Below are positions 1,942 through 19,462 of a stretch of DNA of 30,116 nucleotides, piece by piece; position 1 is the first letter of the stretch; each line of letters opens with the position of its first letter. The translations under genes and the position numbers were made by a program. Source of the stretch: a virus; the IMG/VR virus record IMGVR_UViG_3300009164_000240, positions 1-30,116 of that record; one strand, given 5' to 3'. Below the pieces are notes generated by a model. The model was not told where the DNA came from. It saw only the letters and a program-made list of their open reading frames with translations, and did not search any database.

Positions 1942-4269
1942 TTATCCCATAAAGTCGCCAAGTGCGGCGTTGTTTGCTGCTATGTCTTCATCTGTTGGTC
2001 CGGACCTTGGAGGCTCAGGTGTAGTTGTATCGTATAACATCTGTGTTTGTTTGCTAATTGCTTCAGAACCGTCAATGTAATCGTTACCTTGGCCTTGTAA
2101 TCTCATTAGTTCAAGAGTTTGCTGGAAGGATCCGCCGGAAAATTTGCTGTTGACATAGTTGACTTTGTAAATTCCGCTGAACGGACTAATCCATTCTCCC
2201 TTAGGAAAATTGTATAATCCACCTTCACCTGTAACTCCTAAATTAGGTTCTATAGGACTTCTCCAAGATATAAAAACATAAATTTCGCTAGCTTCCCAAT
2301 TCATACTAGCATCTGTAGTGACTTGTGGATTACTACTTTCTTCTGCAAAATAATTAGAATTAATTCCGCTGTCAGATATAAAAAACGGATCTCCTAAAAT
2401 ATCAATGTTGACATTTGCTAAATCTTTAGAGCCGTTTAAGAATGCATGATTAAATGCATCAGCAATCACTTGTTCAACTGTTTTATCTCCAGAGGCAGTT
2501 CCTGTTTTAATACTGTAATCAGGCTTAATTGCGGCTCCTCCAGCTAGTGAAGTAACACCACTAGAAGCTTCGCCTTTTTGTATAATTGCTTGATTTTTTT
2601 GTTCATCGGTGCCTGCTTGAATATCTTTATTAGCAACACTACCGTGCTGATTAGGTGGAGTTGGCATTTGTCCTTGGAACCACAAAGCATTTAATTGTAT
2701 ATCAAACTTTAATAAATCATTATTTGTTCCTGTATAGATATAATCATATTTTTTTGCAATAATCTTTTGTAGTGCTCCTCGACCTGGAGGTGCTGCATTA
2801 GGATTTTTAAATACTGCAGAATCGACTTTGTAAGGAACTATACGATAAACGTATTTTTTTGCCCTTACATTTCGTAATGGATCATATTCTAATAGTTGTA
2901 TTTGACAATCAATTCTATACCAATTAATTGCATTATCTACAATTGCCGTAGGTTTGATTGCATTTTCGGCAAACTTAGAACTTAAAATAATTCTATTAAT
3001 AATTTGACTTATTTTTTCTCCTTGTGGAAAAGTAAATAATCTTAAATTAGTATCAATAGACATTTTTTCTTTAATTACTTTTTGACCCTTTTCATCTACA
3101 ACATCGCTTTCTGATTTGAAAACATAATTACCACCGGAGGTTGCATCAAATCCCATAGTGTTAACATCACTACCTATTGCTCCACTGCCGAAGTCAACAT
3201 CACTATCGTCTTCAGAAGTACCGAGATTTATAGGAATCTGAGCATTGGGGTCGGCGGTGGCTCTAAGACTATCTGTGGATGTTGACTTATCCTCTGTCCC
3301 CACCGGATCTGAAGCACTTACCGGAAATACTATCTGATACACGTCTGGATATGTTTGTTGTTTTTTAGCCACACGTTCTCGTTGAATTCTATTTAAAGTA
3401 GTGCATAAACTTCTTGCACCTGACGACAATACACTCTTACAAGTTTCGCCGGTGATTGATATTTCGTTAGGAACAACATTAACAAGATCACTAAATCCAG
3501 AATAGTGCAGTGGCATTGCTGTTACTTTGTATTTGCTTCCACCTTCATCTACTTTAAATTCTATTTGATTAATACGAACAGTAAAATATCTAGTTAGGTC
3601 GTCAGTTGATGAAAAGATTGCGCCGTTGTCTTTGAAACCTTTAAATTCTAACATTAACAAATATGGTGTTACTTCTAGATAACTAGGATATCCTGCATTA
3701 ACTGCGGCAGTTTTCATACTCTGTAAAAATAATCCCATACTGTAAGGTTCGAATACATCAAAGGTAATGTTAAAATTATTTGTGTTACCTTCTTTAGCAC
3801 CTGGAGCAACATTGTGCTTCATTTGTACGTTGTCTATAAAATACTCAGGGGCGCCGTTTACTGTATTTGCACGTTTGTCGTCAAACCTACCGGCCGATGA
3901 TAAAATTACATTGTTTAGTGCTGATGGATTATTCCTATATAATTTAGGATTGTTAAATTGATTTGGTTCTAAACAGGCCAGTGTCCATAGAGGAGCATAA
4001 GAAGCAAATTGTTCTAATACGTTTTCATACGGGGGGCCGCCGGCAGGCGAGTTTACAAAAGCAGTTAACAATGGAGCAATTTTAGCAGGATCAGGTTCAT
4101 AGTTTTGACCTTGTCCTGGAGTCATTGTTGCTCCACCGACAACGGCATTAGTCAATTGTCTTGCAGATCCAACCGCTAGATTAATTGCCGCTGCTACATT
4201 AAGAACCGGGTTGCCATCGGGTCTTAATACATTTCCTAGAGCTTGCCCGATATCACGAAAATCTGGCAT
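1942..4269 (-). CDS. Putative baseplate hub protein (gp27/gpD-like)
   Basis: This is a 775-residue protein encoded between gp53 and gp5, where T4-like phages keep baseplate hub genes. The C-terminal ~100 residues carry a hub-type signature: IDILGDPFFISDSG, then SPFSGIYKVNYVNSKFSGG and FQQTLELMRLQG. This resembles the end of late-control D/gp27-type hub proteins, which support the spike and receive the tail tube. The N-terminal region has a long segment with YMLMLEF-like and FDVFEPYSMGLFLQSMKTAA motifs typical of phage structural proteins. It is about twice the length of T4 gp27 (391 residues), so extra domains are present. It begins one base after the gp53 stop, suggesting coupled translation. 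The hub role is well supported by position and the C-terminus; direct orthology to gp27 is an inference. Confidence 0.6.
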   Translation of the reverse strand: MPDFRDIGQALGNVLRPDGNPVLNVAAAINLAVGSARQLTNAVVGGATMTPGQGQNYEPDPAKIAPLLTAFVNSPAGGPPYENVLEQFASYAPLWTLACLEPNQFNNPKLYRNNPSALNNVILSSAGRFDDKRANTVNGAPEYFIDNVQMKHNVAPGAKEGNTNNFNITFDVFEPYSMGLFLQSMKTAAVNAGYPSYLEVTPYLLMLEFKGFKDNGAIFSSTDDLTRYFTVRINQIEFKVDEGGSKYKVTAMPLHYSGFSDLVNVVPNEISITGETCKSVLSSGARSLCTTLNRIQRERVAKKQQTYPDVYQIVFPVSASDPVGTEDKSTSTDSLRATADPNAQIPINLGTSEDDSDVDFGSGAIGSDVNTMGFDATSGGNYVFKSESDVVDEKGQKVIKEKMSIDTNLRLFTFPQGEKISQIINRIILSSKFAENAIKPTAIVDNAINWYRIDCQIQLLEYDPLRNVRAKKYVYRIVPYKVDSAVFKNPNAAPPGRGALQKIIAKKYDYIYTGTNNDLLKFDIQLNALWFQGQMPTPPNQHGSVANKDIQAGTDEQKNQAIIQKGEASSGVTSLAGGAAIKPDYSIKTGTASGDKTVEQVIADAFNHAFLNGSKDLANVNIDILGDPFFISDSGINSNYFAEESSNPQVTTDASMNWEASEIYVFISWRSPIEPNLGVTGEGGLYNFPKGEWISPFSGIYKVNYVNSKFSGGSFQQTLELMRLQGQGNDYIDGSEAISKQTQMLYDTTTPEPPRSGPTDEDIAANNAALGDFMG

Positions 4270-12579: not shown

Positions 12580-13722
12580 ATGAGAATTAATGAATTTTTA
12601 ACCGAATCGGAATTGCAAGAAGGCCCAATTCTAAATAAAATAGGAGCAGGCATCGGCAAAGCTGTTGGAACAGCAGCCAAGGGAGTCGGAGCAGTTGCTG
12701 GCGGAGTTGCGGGATTAGGTCGTGCAATCAAAAAAGGTTTTACGGCAGGTAGAGACACAGTCGGTGGAGCAGGCGACGATGAAGCAGATGCAGCACCAGC
12801 AGGAGGAGGTGCCTCAGCAGCACCAGCAGCACCAGCAGGTAATGCACCAGCAGGTAATGCACCAGCAGCGCCAACAGCACCAGCAGGTAATGCGCCAGCA
12901 GCACCAGCAGGTAATGCACCAGCAGGTAATGCACCAGCAGCGCCAGCAGCACCAGCAGCACCAGCAGCACCAGCAGGTAATGCACCAGCAGCGCCGGCAG
13001 CACCTAAATCACAATTTGGAAAATTATCAGCAGCAGCAAATGGCGAACCCGCAGCACCGGCAGCTAATCCTAAAGCAGATACAGCATATGCTCAAGCGCA
13101 AAAAGCAATTGCAGGATTAGATTCTAAACAAAAAGGTGAGTTAGTTGCAATGTTGCAGAAAGAAGTTAGTAAAAAACCGCCTGCTGCTCCGAAGACAAAA
13201 GCTGATCCAGGTGCAGGAGCAATGGGTAACATGGCAGGACAGTTAGCTAAAGGTGGAGCAGCAAAACCAAACACAATGGCTAATGCTCCAGTGAGCAAAA
13301 CAAATACTGCCAAGCCCGGTAATCCAAATGCAGCACCAGCCGGTAACTACAATGGAAATACCGGAGCACCGGTATCAGGTAAAGCTAAAGCAGATGCAGA
13401 ATTTGATGCTAGTCCAGAAGGTCAAGCAATGCAAGCTAAAGTTGATGCAATGGGAACTACTCCAACAAAACCAAAAAGAGCATCAAGAGCTAAAGCGCCA
13501 GCAGCAGCGCCTGTAGATCCTACAGCAGCACCAGGTGCTGAGCCAACAACTCCAAAGAAGAAAGGTGGACGTAAGAAGCCAGCAGCACCAAGTCAAGCAG
13601 AGATTGATGCAGACAGAGATCGTATCATGGGTAACTTTACCGACAGCGTTAATCGATATAAGAAAGTTATAGCAGAAAATGCTATTAGGTCCGGAGAGAT
13701 TAGTATTTTTAGAAAGCGTTAA
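12580..13722 (+). CDS. Ala/Pro-rich repeat protein, putative virion component
   Basis: This is a 380-residue protein with a very biased composition. The N-terminus (MRINEFLTESELQEGP, then IGAGIGKAVGTAAKGVGAVA) resembles the EGP...GKAIGKA segment of the upstream protein. Residues ~68-145 are a repeat of PAGNAPA and PAAPAAP units. The rest is Lys/Ala/Pro-rich with basic patches (KRASRAKAP, PKKKGGRKKP). The last ~40 residues look folded (IMGNFTDSVNRYKKVIAENA) and end SIFRKR. The upstream stop (TAAGGA) supplies the ribosome-binding site, so the two genes are coupled. A terminator follows directly. The function is unknown; an unfolded, basic, DNA-associated or internal head protein is one possibility. 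Confidence 0.6.
   Translation: MRINEFLTESELQEGPILNKIGAGIGKAVGTAAKGVGAVAGGVAGLGRAIKKGFTAGRDTVGGAGDDEADAAPAGGGASAAPAAPAGNAPAGNAPAAPTAPAGNAPAAPAGNAPAGNAPAAPAAPAAPAAPAGNAPAAPAAPKSQFGKLSAAANGEPAAPAANPKADTAYAQAQKAIAGLDSKQKGELVAMLQKEVSKKPPAAPKTKADPGAGAMGNMAGQLAKGGAAKPNTMANAPVSKTNTAKPGNPNAAPAGNYNGNTGAPVSGKAKADAEFDASPEGQAMQAKVDAMGTTPTKPKRASRAKAPAAAPVDPTAAPGAEPTTPKKKGGRKKPAAPSQAEIDADRDRIMGNFTDSVNRYKKVIAENAIRSGEISIFRKR
12823..12945 (+). repeat. Imperfect tandem repeat coding PAGNAPA units
   Basis: The 51-bp segment at 12823-12873 recurs without change at 12895-12945, offset by 72 bp. Within it a shorter unit (CCAGCAGGTAATGCA) is itself repeated. Similar units continue to about 13000. Such DNA can gain or lose units by slippage while keeping the frame. 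Confidence 0.85.
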
Positions 13723-13724
13723 AC

Positions 13725-13750
13725 AAAAAGGGCTCTAAGAGCCCTTTTTT
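13725..13750. terminator. Bidirectional intrinsic terminator
   Basis: The stem GGGCTC/GAGCCC (13730-13735 and 13739-13744) with a TAA loop is flanked by an A run on the left and a T run on the right, so it can stop transcription on both strands. It lies exactly between the convergent genes ending at 13722 (plus) and 13752 (minus). Confidence 0.9.
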
Positions 13751-13751
13751 A

Positions 13752-13934
13752 TTAGAAGAACGGTAGTCCCGACTTTTTAGTTGTTTCAAGATTGTCTTTG
13801 ATGATTTCACCAACTATACCACGTTCCTCACTACTGAGCATTAATGCATCCCAGTAATTCATGCCACGCATGTACCAGCATATCTTCAAGATATCTTTTT
13901 TAATTTCCTTAGCCTCTTTTTCGAGATGCTGCAC
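13752..13934 (-). CDS. gp51-position small protein, probably the -1 frameshift extension of gp26
   Basis: This is a frame of 60 codons with a helical, charged product (QHLEKEAKEIKKDILKICWY, then LSSEERGIVGEIIKDNLETT, ending SGLPFF). The only upstream start is a GTG at 13934 with a GGAG 12 bases away, which is poor. The frame is open back to the slippery heptamer near the end of the gp26 gene, in the -1 register, adding 15 codons. Expression as a gp26 fusion of about 356 residues is therefore likely. T4 has gene 51, needed for hub assembly, directly after gene 26. A standalone short protein cannot be excluded. Confidence 0.6.
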   Translation of the reverse strand: MQHLEKEAKEIKKDILKICWYMRGMNYWDALMLSSEERGIVGEIIKDNLETTKKSGLPFF

Positions 13935-13963
13935 ATACAGTAGGATCTCCGGCTGAGGAAGAA

Positions 13964-14821
13964 TTAAGAGCCTACCCCGAAAAAATTTGTTTGATCCATT
14001 GTAAGCTCAACGTTAAATTCGTGCTCACATTCTAGACATTTAACATTTTGAGATTTTAATGACATTAAATCTTTCATTTCGGAAATACGTTCGTTTACCA
14101 TGTTGAATACTTGACTTGATGTATTCTCCATAAACTCTTTAATCATACCTTTGTCATTAACAATCCCTTCGGGAGTTTCAATACTAGCAATACAATTGAC
14201 AACAATATCAACAGTAAGTTCTGTTAATTTTACAAAACTCTCACCAAACTTTTCAACTTTTTCTTCTTCTGATAAGTTTTCATCTGTTACCACTGCAATT
14301 AACTTTTGTTGTTCAAACGTCTTGATAGCAGCTTTGGTAATTTCTTTATAGTTGTAAGGTCTTAGATTAATAATCAATCCGTTGACCTCTAATCGACTAT
14401 CATAATGGAACTCGGCAGCATGATCTAAATATTTTAATAAATCTAAATCGTATTCATTTCGATGCTCGCATGCAGGACAGTCTGTTGATACTTCCATGCT
14501 TTCACCATAACTGGCAATACGGATAGCAATTAACACAGTGTCCAAATCAATGCTGGGCATAAGCCAAGGATTTTTAATAGCCGGAATGCAACTTTTAATA
14601 ACCTCAACAGTTGCTTGCCCGTTCATTAATGCATCCGGAGTCTTAAACATTAATTCGTCTTTAGCTGTCATTGCATACACAGCATATTCGTCGTTTTGAC
14701 TTACATCTAACGATCCTTCTTTATAATACTCACCGTGACTAGGCAATCGAATAAACAATTTTGGTTGTCTAAAATAATTGGCTAGAGGGTTGCCAATAGG
14801 CTTATTAACTTGATCTGACAT
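13964..14821 (-). CDS. 26: Baseplate hub assembly protein gp26-like
   Basis: This 285-residue protein belongs to the T4 gp26 baseplate family. The N-terminus has the family pattern RQPKLFIRLPSHGEYY and KDELMFKTPDALMNGQA. Two CxxCxH motifs, at C115/C118/H120 and C262/C265/H267, probably form one zinc ribbon. An AxIKTFEQQ helix and an acidic region lie between. A GGAG ribosome-binding site precedes the ATG, and a perfect late-promoter box (TATAAATA) lies upstream. The last codons are AAT TTT TTC GGG GTA GGC TCT TAA: the T TTT TTC heptamer allows a -1 shift into the next frame. T4 gp26 is 208 residues, so this form is longer. The gene faces away from the tape measure gene, and a chaperone role in tail assembly fits both the frameshift and the position. 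Confidence 0.85.
   Translation of the reverse strand: MSDQVNKPIGNPLANYFRQPKLFIRLPSHGEYYKEGSLDVSQNDEYAVYAMTAKDELMFKTPDALMNGQATVEVIKSCIPAIKNPWLMPSIDLDTVLIAIRIASYGESMEVSTDCPACEHRNEYDLDLLKYLDHAAEFHYDSRLEVNGLIINLRPYNYKEITKAAIKTFEQQKLIAVVTDENLSEEEKVEKFGESFVKLTELTVDIVVNCIASIETPEGIVNDKGMIKEFMENTSSQVFNMVNERISEMKDLMSLKSQNVKCLECEHEFNVELTMDQTNFFGVGS
13979..13985 (-). other. Candidate -1 ribosomal frameshift site (T TTT TTC)
   Basis: On the minus strand the heptamer TTTTTTC is read in the gp26 frame as T TTT TTC, the canonical X XXY YYZ form. After a -1 shift the next codon is CGG (13979-13977), and the frame stays open through the 13752-13934 reading frame. Six bases downstream a GGCT/AGCC stem (13972-13969 with 13954-13951) can form, or alternatively GTAGG/CCTAC (13975-13971 with 13944-13940). 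Confidence 0.65.
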
Positions 14822-14831
14822 TTTTTTCTCC

Positions 14832-14854: not shown

Positions 14855-14862
14855 TATTTATA
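14855..14862 (-). promoter_or_regulatory. Consensus late promoter TATAAATA for gp26
   Basis: The minus strand reads TATAAATACACG, an exact match to the T4 late -10 box. It reads toward gp26 (ATG at 14821) and gives a leader of about 20-25 nt that contains the GGAG site. Confidence 0.7.
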
Positions 14863-14887: not shown

Positions 14888-17800
14888 ATGGCAGAAGTAA
14901 CCGGTGATTTTGGCGGACAGCCAATACAATTAAACAACGCAGCTACTGAAGCAACGTTGAAGCAACTTCTTGCGGCAATGCTGGCCAGTGTGGCGCAGCA
15001 GGGTAAGAATACCAAAAAAGATATTAAAATACAGCAAGACCTAGAAGCAGAATTACGAAAGATAGCCAAAGGCGCACAGGATTTTAAGAAAGCACAAGCC
15101 GATGCCGCTGCTGCTACTAAAGATAATACTAAGAAAATAGATGATGCTGCTGAAGCCACGAAGAAAAATACCAAAGCAACAGCAGATGCAAAGAAAGCAC
15201 AAGAAGAATACAAAAAGAAACTAGAAGAAAACATTGCAATGATCGGAGCATTAAGCTCTGCCATTGAAAACGGTGTTGGACAAATTAACAAAATAACTAG
15301 TAGCTTTACCAACATGGGTAGCAGTGTTACGGCAGCAGCAGCGTCGTTAAGCGCAATACCAGTAGTTGGTAATATGCTTGCCGGAGTGTTTGGTACAGTT
15401 GCCGGAGCAGCTGAAAAGAGTTACAAAGCCTTTCAGCAATCTGCTAGTGTTGGTGCAAACTTTGGCGGTAGTATTAATGACATGATTCGTGCATCTAGTG
15501 ATGCAGGATTAACCTTTGATCAGTTTAGTGGAGTTGTTGCAAAGAACGGTGAAGCATTAGCTTTACTAGGTGGAAGCACTAGAGATGGCGCAAAACGACT
15601 AGCAGAACTAGGTAAAGAAATTAAAAAGTCTCCATTAATGGGAGAACTTGCAGGACTTGGCTACAGCACAGAAGAAGTTAATTCTGGTATGGCCAAATAC
15701 TCAAGTATGTTGGCCAAGACAGGTCAGTTGGAAGGAAAAACAAATGCACAATTAGTTGCTGGCAGTGCAGAATATCTTAAGAATTTAGATCAACTATCTC
15801 GACTAACTGGACAGAGCAAAGATGCATTACAAGCCCAACAAGATGCGCTAATGGCCGATGCTCAGTTTCGTTCAAGATTGCAAGGCATGGACGAAGCCGG
15901 ACAAGCACGATTGAATAAATTAATGTTGAGTTTGCCTGCTAGTCTACAAAAAGGTGCTAAGGAATTTATAGCCTTCGGTGGTGCCACTACTGATGCTGGT
16001 AGAGAATTTGCAACATTCATGCAGAAAGGTGCAGGAGCATCTAATGCAGCATTTAGAGAAATTGAACAAAGTGGTACGTTGTCACAGAAAGGTGCCGATG
16101 CTGTATACAGTGCTATTAAAGAAGATGCCGATGCACTTAAGAAAAGCGGTACCGGTAAATTAATTGCCAACGTTGGTAATGGTGCGCAACAGGCCATTGC
16201 ATTAGATGCAATGAATCTTTCCGCAAGAAAAACTACAACATCACAAATACAAAAGCAACAAGAAGAAGAATTAGCAGCACAAAAAGAAAGAACTAAGAAA
16301 GCTCAGGAAGGAATGAATCCTGAGGCAATGATGAAATTCCAACAGTTGATTGCTGAAACAAGTAATCGATTTACAGAGATGGTTGGTAATCATTTACCTC
16401 AACTACAAAGTATGTTTACAAAGCTAGCAGGCTTTGTCGAGTCGTATGTACTACCAGCATTTTCTTTAATTGCAAAACACATTGAAATTGTTGTTGCTGG
16501 TATGATTGCACTAAAAGTAGCACAGCTGGCTTATAAAGCTGCAATGTTTGTTGAGAAGATGAAAGAAGGTAAACGTCCAGCAGGTACCTCGGCTGATCCA
16601 ATTCATACTACCGATGGTGGCAAAGGTGGTGGACTTGACGGCGGTAATGGTAAGGGCGGTAAGAAAGGTGGCAAAGCAGGTGGAATGAAAGGTGCAGGCG
16701 GCCTCGTAAAAGGGGTAGCAGTGCTTGGTGCAGTAACAGCACTAGTTGGTTTGTATGATGATATCAAAGATGTTAATAAAGAAGTTGATTCTGGAGATAT
16801 CACCGAACGTGAAGGAACTGTAAAGAAAGGTGAAGCTGTTGGTACCGCTGCAGGTACCGCAGGGGGAGCATGGGCCGGAGCAGCCGCAGGAGCAGCTATT
16901 GGTTCAGTAGTACCTATTGTTGGTACAGTTGTAGGCGGCTTAATTGGCGGAGCCATTGGTGGTTGGTTGGGTGGAAAAGGTGGTGCAATGATTGGTAGTA
17001 GTGTAACAGAAGCTGTTACAGAATTATCAATGGACGATCTCAAGAAAGATAAAAATCTTTATAAACAATATCTAGACAAGTATAATGAATCGCTAAACCG
17101 CAATTTAAAATTAGGTAAATCCAAAGAAGAAGCAGATAAACTTGCAATAGCAGAAGCCAATAAAGCCCTCAATGTTAAGAAAGAAGAAATAAAAGTCACC
17201 AAAGCCAAAATTGAAGCAGATGCAAAAGCAGCAGATGCAGCAAAAACAGCAGCAGCAACACCAGCCGAACCTGCGCCAGAATTAGATTTTGGTGATCCAC
17301 AAAAACTATTTGATTCATTTAAGAAGCGCCAAGATGCACTATCCGGACAACCGCAAGTTGCACCTCCTGCCGGCAACGTTCCTGCTCCGGCAGCAGTAGT
17401 ACCACCGGGCGGCGCTGTTGCTACTCCTCCACCACTTAAGCAAGATCAAACTAAAAATATGGAGTTGATTAAAGCAGCTCTACAAAAACAAGGAATAACA
17501 GATCCTAAGTACATTGCAGCAACACTTGGCAATGTTATGAAAGAGACTGGCGGTCAAAGTAAGTCGGAAAATTTAGATTACTCTAAAACTAGTAATGATA
17601 GAATTAAATCAGTATTTGGTTCTAGAGCAGCAGGCAAGACTGATCAAGAATTAAATCAAATAAAATCAGACCCTAAACAAATGGGTGAGATGATGTATGG
17701 CGCAAGTACTAAAATGGGCCAACAGATGGGCAACACTGAACCGGGCGACGGTTGGAAATATCGAGGTCGTGGCTTTATTCAACTTACTGGTAAAAGCAAT

Positions 17801-19462
17801 TATGCACAGGCATCTAAGGCAATTTATGGTGACGACAGGTTAGTTCAAAACCCAGACTTGGTAAATGACCCAGCAGTAGCAGCTGAAGTTAGTGCTTGGT
17901 ACATGAAGAAAGGCAAGTCAGCAATGGCTGCTAAAATGGGCATAGACGAAAAGAATATGTCTCAAGGTGATGCTAACTTATTAGCAACTAGTCAAATTGC
18001 AGGTGGTGATGTCCGCAAAAAAGGTAGTTACCTAGCCGGCGAAGTAATGAATAAAGTTACTGCATATTCTGGACAAATGGCTGGTATTGCCGGAACAGCC
18101 CCAAGTGCAGAAGCAGCAACAGCGTTAGCAGCTAATAAAAAATTACCAGCAGCAGCACCGGTTGTTGCGGCAGCAGCACCGGTCGTTGCAGCAGCACCTC
18201 CAACAGATAAAAAATTACCAGCAGCAGCACCGGTTGTTGCGGCAGCACTGCCGACAGATAAAAATAAGACAGATGCAGCTAACCCAATGGCTAAAGATCC
18301 ATCACAACAAGTAGCCACAGCACAACCAACAGATAAGAATAAGAAAGATACTGCACTAGCACAGCCAGTTGGACAGCAGACTGCTCCCGGTAATAATAAC
18401 TATGATTTTGGAATGTCAGTTGCAATTGCCGGACAAACATTCCAGGCAGCGGTATTAAAAAGTGCTCAACTAATTGATACTACTTTTGGAAAATTTAGTG
18501 CTTCTTTTGATAAAACAAAATCAGTATCGCCTAATGAAACAAATGCAAAAGTAGCAAATGAGAATTTGCAGAAAAGTATTGATAGTACTTTTGGAAAATT
18601 TAGTACTGATGTTACATCAATGTCAACTGATGCAACAATGGCCAATGCCGCAAATCAAAACTTACAGAAAAGTATTGATAGTACTTTTGGAAATTTTAGT
18701 ACTGATTTTGCAAAGATGTCATCAACTTCAACAATGGCCAATGCGGCAAATGAAAATTTACAGAAGAGTATTGATGCCACTCTTGGAAATTTTAGCACTG
18801 ATTTTGCAACTATATCATCTGATAAAACACCGGCCGACACGGGACCTAGTAATCTACAAAAAATTATAGATAGTATTGTTGGAAATTTTAGTTCGTTGTT
18901 TGATAACACAAAAGTAGAATCACCTGATATAAATCTAGCAAATGAAAATTTACAGAAAAGTATGGATACTGCTTTTGGAAATTTTAGTTCGTTGTTTGAT
19001 AACACAAAAGTAGAACAGCCTGACACAACAGCATTATCAGATAATACAAAAGAATTATTAACAAGTGCTCAGATGATTGATACTACTTTTGGAAAAGTTG
19101 GATCACTATTTGAAAAAACACAATTATCTTCACCGGACGCATCAACTGCAACCGCAACAGTTTCAGCAGATACAACAAAAGCATTAATAGAAAAAATGTT
19201 TGCAGACAGCCAAACACAATTAGCCCAACTACAAACAATAAAAGACTCAAAAGCAAGTGATACTGAAACTAAACCTGGACCAGGAACAGGAGCTCCGGGT
19301 GCCGGTGGAGTTTCAACTCTTAATGAAGTGGTAGCTAGTTTAGAAATGTTAAATAAACAGATAGGACAATTAATTGGTATAAGTAGAACTACCGCCGATT
19401 TAAATGAAAGTCAGCTACGTGTACAAAAGAACATGGGTGGTGACATGTTCTTATCAGCTTAA
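14888..19462 (+). CDS. Tape-measure-like tail protein with embedded GH19 muralytic domain
   Basis: This is a 1524-residue protein and the largest gene in the window. The N-terminal ~140 residues are coiled-coil-like (Lys/Ala/Asp-rich). Residues ~150-500 are helical, with SLSAIPVVGNMLAGVFGTVA and long Gln/Ala segments typical of tape measure proteins. Two hydrophobic Gly/Ala segments follow (about 605-625 and 650-705, with VVPIVGTVVGGLIGGAIGGW). Residues ~857-1055 are a GH19 chitinase/endolysin-type domain: NVMKETGGQ (candidate catalytic E886), SENLDYS, then GWKYRGRGFIQLTGKSNYAQ. Ala/Pro linkers and a 32-residue tandem repeat (about 1195-1400) come next, and a short helical C-terminus. The ribosome-binding site is a GGGG run 9 bases upstream. 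Its role as tape measure is inferred from length, composition and the divergent gp26/gp51 partner; it is 2.6 times the length of T4 gp29. Confidence 0.7.
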   Translation: MAEVTGDFGGQPIQLNNAATEATLKQLLAAMLASVAQQGKNTKKDIKIQQDLEAELRKIAKGAQDFKKAQADAAAATKDNTKKIDDAAEATKKNTKATADAKKAQEEYKKKLEENIAMIGALSSAIENGVGQINKITSSFTNMGSSVTAAAASLSAIPVVGNMLAGVFGTVAGAAEKSYKAFQQSASVGANFGGSINDMIRASSDAGLTFDQFSGVVAKNGEALALLGGSTRDGAKRLAELGKEIKKSPLMGELAGLGYSTEEVNSGMAKYSSMLAKTGQLEGKTNAQLVAGSAEYLKNLDQLSRLTGQSKDALQAQQDALMADAQFRSRLQGMDEAGQARLNKLMLSLPASLQKGAKEFIAFGGATTDAGREFATFMQKGAGASNAAFREIEQSGTLSQKGADAVYSAIKEDADALKKSGTGKLIANVGNGAQQAIALDAMNLSARKTTTSQIQKQQEEELAAQKERTKKAQEGMNPEAMMKFQQLIAETSNRFTEMVGNHLPQLQSMFTKLAGFVESYVLPAFSLIAKHIEIVVAGMIALKVAQLAYKAAMFVEKMKEGKRPAGTSADPIHTTDGGKGGGLDGGNGKGGKKGGKAGGMKGAGGLVKGVAVLGAVTALVGLYDDIKDVNKEVDSGDITEREGTVKKGEAVGTAAGTAGGAWAGAAAGAAIGSVVPIVGTVVGGLIGGAIGGWLGGKGGAMIGSSVTEAVTELSMDDLKKDKNLYKQYLDKYNESLNRNLKLGKSKEEADKLAIAEANKALNVKKEEIKVTKAKIEADAKAADAAKTAAATPAEPAPELDFGDPQKLFDSFKKRQDALSGQPQVAPPAGNVPAPAAVVPPGGAVATPPPLKQDQTKNMELIKAALQKQGITDPKYIAATLGNVMKETGGQSKSENLDYSKTSNDRIKSVFGSRAAGKTDQELNQIKSDPKQMGEMMYGASTKMGQQMGNTEPGDGWKYRGRGFIQLTGKSNYAQASKAIYGDDRLVQNPDLVNDPAVAAEVSAWYMKKGKSAMAAKMGIDEKNMSQGDANLLATSQIAGGDVRKKGSYLAGEVMNKVTAYSGQMAGIAGTAPSAEAATALAANKKLPAAAPVVAAAAPVVAAAPPTDKKLPAAAPVVAAALPTDKNKTDAANPMAKDPSQQVATAQPTDKNKKDTALAQPVGQQTAPGNNNYDFGMSVAIAGQTFQAAVLKSAQLIDTTFGKFSASFDKTKSVSPNETNAKVANENLQKSIDSTFGKFSTDVTSMSTDATMANAANQNLQKSIDSTFGNFSTDFAKMSSTSTMANAANENLQKSIDATLGNFSTDFATISSDKTPADTGPSNLQKIIDSIVGNFSSLFDNTKVESPDINLANENLQKSMDTAFGNFSSLFDNTKVEQPDTTALSDNTKELLTSAQMIDTTFGKVGSLFEKTQLSSPDASTATATVSADTTKALIEKMFADSQTQLAQLQTIKDSKASDTETKPGPGTGAPGAGGVSTLNEVVASLEMLNKQIGQLIGISRTTADLNESQLRVQKNMGGDMFLSA
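18135..18247 (+). repeat. 41-bp perfect direct repeat in the tape measure gene linker
   Basis: The 41-bp sequence at 18135-18175 is repeated exactly at 18207-18247 (72-bp offset). It encodes the KKLPAAAPVVAAA-type linker directly after the GH19 domain. Confidence 0.9.
18470..19110 (+). repeat. Tandem repeat of exact 96-bp period in the tape measure gene
   Basis: Units anchored on the codons for S-I-D-S-T-F-G-N-F-S begin at 18575, 18671, 18767, 18863 and 18959, each exactly 96 bp (32 residues) apart. Degenerate edge copies sit at 18470 (105 bp before) and 19073 (114 bp after). Core protein units read NLQKSIDSTFGNFSTDF. DNA identity between neighbours is high but not complete. Confidence 0.92.

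Follow-up and report, generated by a model that had tools for sequence, protein, structure and literature searches.

Phage lambda is said to make its tail assembly chaperones as the pair gpG and gpGT, in work reportedly by Xu, Hendrix and Duda from 2004, and T4 gp26 and gp51 were reportedly treated as tail assembly chaperones by Vladimirov, Gautam and Davidson in 2022. The locus described here shares with lambda G/GT a short protein with a predicted -1 long form, a slippery heptamer close to the 3' end of its first ORF and a place beside the tape measure gene. It departs from lambda in its heptamer, T TTT TTC, and in the placing of its gp26 gene, which closes its own transcript and runs on the opposite strand from the tape measure gene; similarity to the lambda proteins was demonstrated neither in sequence nor in fold. 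With T4 gp26 and gp51 it shares a common family, PF12322, and the extra C-terminus of gp51 plays the part of the extension (T region) that is read here in the -1 frame. Unlike the window, by which we mean the whole 30,116-nt stretch of viral DNA analyzed, T4 has two genes on opposite strands and no T6 heptamer at the end of gp26.

In the sections available, a T4 review (PMC3004832) names gp26 and gp51 as chaperones of hub assembly, with gp51 absent from the final particle, and states that genetic studies support gp26 in the hub. The PRFect paper (PMC10885494), which also names the lambda pair, reports in a passage citing Vladimirov et al. 2022 that some T4-like phages do not frameshift but carry one short TAC gene and one long, fused TAC gene, and the title of the 2022 study of T4-like phages suggests other means than frameshifting in them. 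Cyanophage and vibriophage gp51 proteins without the first ~200 residues were noted in the available portion of Sullivan et al. 2010 (PMC3037559). Section 3.8.3 of a further paper (PMC12846349) describes the same short/long design with the motif GTTTTT in other phage families, exemplified by TAC-N/TAC-NC of Pakpunavirus Adele, in which, unlike in the window, the extension precedes the tape measure gene. In the same section poly-T signals are called known in the TAC-N genes of T4-like phages, and part of what follows is therefore possibly already in print.

Our literature search, mostly of sources other than subscription journals, found no paper on gp26 frameshifting in T4-like or jumbo phages. 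A term search of the accessible text of the RaK2 paper (PMC3622015) gave no occurrences, and the accessible parts of PMC10448857, PMC12671138 and PMC9603447 hold nothing decisive. The frameshift device is of a known kind, and it is absent from the public gene annotations examined. The mechanism itself is classical, and frameshifting members may already figure in the 2022 study, which limits the novelty; new here are the conservation over a clade and in jumbo phages, a codon-level test, a putative hairpin, and the contrast between one gene and two.

The gp26 gene and the open -1 frame in the window

The gp26 ORF encodes 285 aa ending in ...QTNFFGVGS*, and the protein matches PF12322 above the curated cut-off (E 1.4e-19; 71.1 bits against a cut-off of 24.5) as well as phrog_150 (E 8.8e-23). 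The 3' end of the gene reads ACA AAT TTT TTC GGG GTA GGC TCT TAA, with the TAA at 13966-13964. A T TTT TTC heptamer had been placed in register at this end by a sequence-only reading of the same DNA, and it is borne out at 13985-13979 (-). The claim that the -1 frame stays open to the end of the downstream frame also holds, there being no stop from TTT (13985) up to the TAA at 13754-13752, and conceptual fusion of gp26 with the T region gives 356 aa, in agreement with the ~356 residues first estimated. The features of the junction are:

13964..14821 (-): gp26, short form, 285 aa; PF12322 T4_baseplate / phrog_150 baseplate hub
13979..13985 (-): slippery heptamer T TTT TTC, register X XXY YYZ, conserved in relatives
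13752..13979 (-): -1 frame extension (T region), 75 codons plus TAA, which would yield the 356-aa long form after a shift

That reading had further described the -1 frame as having no ATG and only a poor GTG. ATG codons do exist in it, so this part has to be amended; all of them lie downstream of GTG 13934, as the other part implied, the first at +95 from the gp26 stop. The start-to-stop ORF listed in the T region is 60 aa long and begins at this GTG.

In a single sequence the heptamer is unremarkable, because an in-register TTTTTTC arises in gp26 in 10.9% (0.109) of 20,000 synonymous codon permutations and because four other in-register heptamers of the T6/A6 type were found in the 15 long ORFs scanned. 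We therefore dropped the heptamer as evidence in itself. The open frame is a different matter: none of 6,508 -1-frame positions inside the 15 long ORFs stays open for the 77 codons seen here, and this could not be luck. It is the comparison across relatives, not the heptamer in one sequence, that decides the question.

The gp26 gene and its extension are flanked by the following features:

14855..14862 (-): TATAAATA, letters identical to the T4 late promoter core, upstream of gp26; sole copy in the window
14828..14831 (-): GGAG, Shine-Dalgarno-like as judged from sequence, 6 nt ahead of the gp26 ATG
14888..19462 (+): tape-measure-like gene, divergent from gp26; phrog_794, E 2.8e-15
13725..13749 (-): hairpin with flanking A/T runs directly after the T stop, terminator-like on both strands; z -4.45

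The agreement of TATAAATA with the T4 late promoter core proves nothing by its presence alone, since one copy was found in the window against 3.1 expected by chance. The tape measure gene that had been proposed next door on the other strand is confirmed by the phrog_794 match and adjoins gp26. Its product is 1524 aa long and carries an endolysin-like domain at residues 846-1041 (phrog_181, E 3.8e-34). The hairpin at 13725-13749 is near-perfect, lies between two convergent genes and is likely a two-way terminator; a simple terminator scan of the window did not report it. At 12580-13722 (+) there is a 380-aa, Ala/Pro-rich frame with GCACCAGCA-type repeats at its start, which has no PHROG match.

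Conservation and selection at the junction

In a first IMG/VR search we confirmed 363 relatives, and in each of the best 80 of these T TTT TTC stands in register with an open -1 extension behind it (80/80). A second, alignment-based search confirmed at least 590, of which the best 80, overlapping the first set in contigs, show T TTT TTC in 79 of 79 testable loci; one locus is cut by the contig end, and the extension itself is cut in this way in four of the 79. When both sets of the best 80 are pooled, the heptamer is present in 159/159 testable loci, representing 110 distinct 360-nt junctions (110/110), and the codon ahead of TTT TTC in these junctions is AAT, GAT, AGT or ACT.

An alignment of the junction across T4-like phages had been suggested as a check, and we examined the junction in 15 named jumbo phages picked from the 62 phage records matched by gp26. 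T TTT TTY is conserved and the -1 frame is open in 15/15, the heptamer being T TTT TTC in 13 and T TTT TTT in two (XacN1 and RAS14). Counted from the first letter of the heptamer, the gp26 stop lies between 10 and 40 nt downstream. No joined gene is annotated in any of the 15 records, where the extension appears as a separate hypothetical gene or is unannotated.

The conservation extends to the choice of codon. Among 50 representatives (95% identity), the residue is invariant in 68 gp26 columns once Met and Trp are set aside, and only the two heptamer columns use a single codon, TTT in 50/50 and TTC in 50/50; at least two codons are used in the other 66. Elsewhere in the gp26 genes of these representatives TTC makes up 20% of 547 Phe codons. 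A -1-frame stop ahead of the heptamer, which the sequence-only reading had held to count against it, does occur in one relative (L053), yet the frame there opens exactly at the heptamer, and this fits a shift occurring at that point. Two relatives, L170 (gp26 at 2501-3364) and L177 (2501-3334), have lost both CxxC pairs that most members retain, and the probable zinc ribbon is therefore dispensable.

Of the three frames of the extension, only the -1 frame shows purifying selection. In this frame the pN/pS of the T region is 0.28 (gp26 itself, 0.33), as against 1.25 and 1.37 in the other two frames, and across 46 sequences it contains no stop, whereas the others contain 314 and 279. By segment, pN/pS is 0.62 in T codons 1-5, which overlap gp26, 0.365 in codons 6-30, which lie ahead of the first conserved Met, and 0.213 in codons 31-75. 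Conserved -1-frame residues begin at the heptamer itself (FFR...). No start-codon position is shared within T codons 1-30, the commonest occurring in 11 of 46 sequences. An ATG falls between the heptamer and stop+8 in 4/110 distinct junctions, and 42/110 carry an ATG or GTG somewhere within T codons 1-31. We considered and rejected an independent T start at GTG 13934, or at CTG/ATT codons with GGAG or AGG upstream; these start positions are unconserved.

Downstream of the heptamer we located a putative stimulatory hairpin:

13966..13975 (-): putative stimulatory hairpin, 5' arm, 3 nt after the heptamer
13940..13949 (-): putative stimulatory hairpin, 3' arm, pairing with 13975-13966

It comprises 10 pairs; without the two weaker pairs at its outer end, the spacing grows to 5 nt. 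The GTAGG/CCTAC stem proposed earlier is present within these arms and covaries in the clade, but in the window it carries a C.U mismatch. Folding of the window junction alone gave nothing beyond shuffles: the hairpin has z 0.03, and folding 100 nt favors a different structure (z 0.61). A covariation test covered 98 distinct junctions of the window's clade in a gap-free alignment, with 500 shuffles. Pairing holds in 87.1% of cells and drops to 34-52% with one arm displaced, the covariation score reaches 0.298 versus 0.179 in shuffles (attained by 0/500), and 90 cells are changed on both sides versus 33 in shuffles (0/500); two of the five measures are not clearly above shuffles, namely pairs changed on both sides (269/500) and pair types (42/500). 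Of 44 Glu codons at the 3' arm 42 are GAG, as against 109/376 Glu codons elsewhere in T, with two other T Glu columns likewise GAG-rich (32/43 and 24/40). RNAalifold returned no structure on the 98 junctions, none on the 50 representatives and 5 pairs on a set of 80. In 19 more distant junctions folded singly we saw no common hairpin by eye, and a Shine-Dalgarno-like stimulator upstream was found in 0/50 representatives. Taken together, a hairpin downstream of the heptamer is likely though not proven, as it covaries and RNAalifold support is poor.

One gene or two across the T4-like phages

The heptamer recurs well outside the window's clade. In the best 80 of at least 598 confirmed cyanophage-type loci, T TTT TTC lies 10 nt before the gp26 stop in 80/80 and a -1 extension follows in 80/80, cut by the contig end in two. 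It is also present in S-RIM8, Delftia phage PhiW-14, the KVP40-like VH1_2019 and 2/2 KVP40-like IMG/VR loci, and Melnitz has T TTT TTT at its gp26 end. The reduced gp51 of cyanophages and marine vibriophages, as described in the available part of PMC3037559, corresponds to the same kind of -1 extension after gp26 with the same T TTT TTC; its ~200 missing N-terminal residues would then be explained by a -1 frameshift from gp26, which accounts for the puzzling short gp51 noted in 2010. The cyanophage-type extension differs in sequence from that of the window's type, in which the heptamer mostly lies 19 nt before the stop rather than 10.

Conservation is not universal in PF12322, as the heptamer is lacking in the Ackermannviridae 3M and VAP7 and in Microcystis phage Mel-JY01. 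At its place 3M and VAP7 (L187 2100-2400, L189 2440-2700) have GTTTTC/GTTTTT and an open -1 extension-like frame, and this motif resembles the GTTTTT of Adele-like phages. The gp26 gene of Mel-JY01 (L183 2390-3470) ends AAC TTT TTT TGG CCT AAG TAA, and the overlapping extension-like frame after the seven-T run is +1, not -1; judging by this layout, a +1 (or -2) frameshift is possible there.

T4 and its near relatives are arranged differently. A T6 heptamer was found at the gp26 end in 0/6 phages (T4, 44RR, MD-2021a, G5211, Kpn6N and the RB43-like CP-p-KP-21068) and in 0/4 near-T4 IMG/VR loci. One locus, L276, whose gp26 is 58% identical to that of T4, has GAG TTT TTT AAA at the heptamer place although this gp26 is of T4 type and lacks an extension; the run may be what is left of an earlier slip site. 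We counted one PF12322 gene per record in 16/16 frameshift-type records searched (10 from IMG/VR including the window and 6 named phages, several of them fragments) and two each in T4 and 44RR. T4 gp26 and gp51 both match PF12322, and by BLASTP gp51 is a full-length paralogue of gp26 (E 2e-6) that carries an extra C-terminal part. Genes 26 and 51 of T4 are neighbours, as had been stated, but they lie on opposite strands, and given this full-length paralogy the counterpart of the frameshift product is gp51 in its entirety.

Profile comparisons connect the extensions to gp51 to different degrees. The extension of four phages of the cyanophage/KVP40/PhiW-14 type matches the C-terminus of T4-type gp51 by hhalign (94.9%, E 4.4e-8). 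The T region of the window and jumbo phages matches the gp51 family weakly (43%, E 2.5e-4), the window T gives 1.0% against T4 gp51 alone, and the two extension families give 5% against each other. In the conceptual fusion the phrog_150 match goes no further than residue 281, the window T region has no match in PHROGs or Pfam, and tblastn finds it in six phage records. With sequence matches this weak, it is mainly position and design that equate the window T with the C-terminus of gp51. Comparing single-sequence profiles with T4 gp26 and gp51 was uninformative, and we set this approach aside.

We lean towards the view that the frameshifting gp26/gp51 gene is ancestral and still the commoner form across the T4 superfamily (jumbo phages, cyanophages and KVP40-like phages), and that only the T4/44RR/RB49-like branch duplicated the gene into separate 26 and 51; the marine 'truncated gp51' would then be an annotation artefact of an unrecognised -1 frameshift.

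Proposed mechanism and alternative explanations

The best explanation, in which we have high confidence, is that a single gp26 gene with a -1 slip at T TTT TTC produces a short/long tail-assembly-chaperone pair, for which T4 uses two genes. Given the comparisons above, -1 programmed frameshifting at the heptamer is very likely. We infer that most ribosomes on gp26 mRNA would stop at the TAA 13966-13964 and release gp26 of 285 aa, and that a minority would slip by -1 on T TTT TTC as two Phe tRNAs re-pair on TTT TTT. The hairpin 3-5 nt downstream probably helps the slip. Shifted ribosomes would read 75 further codons and make the 356-aa long form, and the two forms would act as a lambda G/GT-like chaperone pair for the adjoining tape measure protein, with T4 gp51 as the counterpart of the long form and T4 gp26 as that of the short form. 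With the heptamer conserved, the -1 frame under selection and the gene present in one copy, the G/GT-like interpretation of the sequence-only reading, including the joining of gp26 to the downstream frame by a -1 shift, proves largely right.

Alternatively, the T region could be a small gene of its own that ribosomes reach by coupling or by re-initiating at the gp26 stop, with the heptamer kept by protein or codon constraint. Many records annotate it as an individual gene, and among distant relatives the gp26 stop often coincides with an in-frame start: ATGA or TAATG in four of the 15 jumbo phages (Atu_ph07, Phosso, PBECO4 and BF), an in-frame start also in KVP40-like phages, PhiW-14 and VAP7, and some start codon near the stop in 40/80 cyanophage-type loci (best 80 of at least 598). 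Yet the window's clade conserves -1-frame residues from the heptamer onwards without conserving any start, and coupling would explain neither the invariant TTT TTC codons nor a fixed T TTT TTY where the stop sits up to 40 nt away, so we regard a separate gene as very improbable. That a sequencing or assembly error split one long gene has practically no chance of being true: we found nothing in its favor, and it is refuted by an identical break at the heptamer in 110 distinct junctions from many assemblies and in isolate genomes, that is, by conservation of the break in independent genomes.

The frameshift might also be real with both forms serving as structural baseplate hub parts in fixed ratio rather than as chaperones, which we consider unlikely. 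The family names (PF12322, phrog_150) say baseplate hub, and the available text of PMC3004832 gives genetic support for gp26 in the T4 hub; against this, the same text calls gp26 and gp51 assembly chaperones and has gp51 missing from the particle. Pairs of one short and one fused long TAC gene in T4-like phages, as given in the passage of PMC10885494 citing Vladimirov et al. 2022, likewise speak for chaperones, and the portion seen of the CBB virion mass-spectrometry table lists CBB_247 and CBB_251 but not CBB_250 (gp26). The structure models offer the chaperone assignment no help. With pLDDT 79.2 for gp26 and 88.8 for T, which is modelled as four helices, Foldseek found nothing at E <= 0.001 for gp26 or T, and VIA-align matched nothing beyond pairs of helices; among the matches listed no TAC structure and no chaperone fold of the TAC, HK97 gp13 type appears for either model, and a sequence search of solved structures gave nothing with E below 0.27. 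A tail-assembly-chaperone role for the gp26 pair is likely on grounds of homology and the short/long design.

A large uncultivated clade and known jumbo phages thus very probably encode a textbook tail-assembly device in one gene that shifts frame. One shifting gene in these phages and two genes in T4 provide a natural contrast for probing how the short:long chaperone ratio sets tail assembly. Annotation is corrected here in 21 frameshift-type or possibly shifting records, in none of which the two frames had been annotated as joined.
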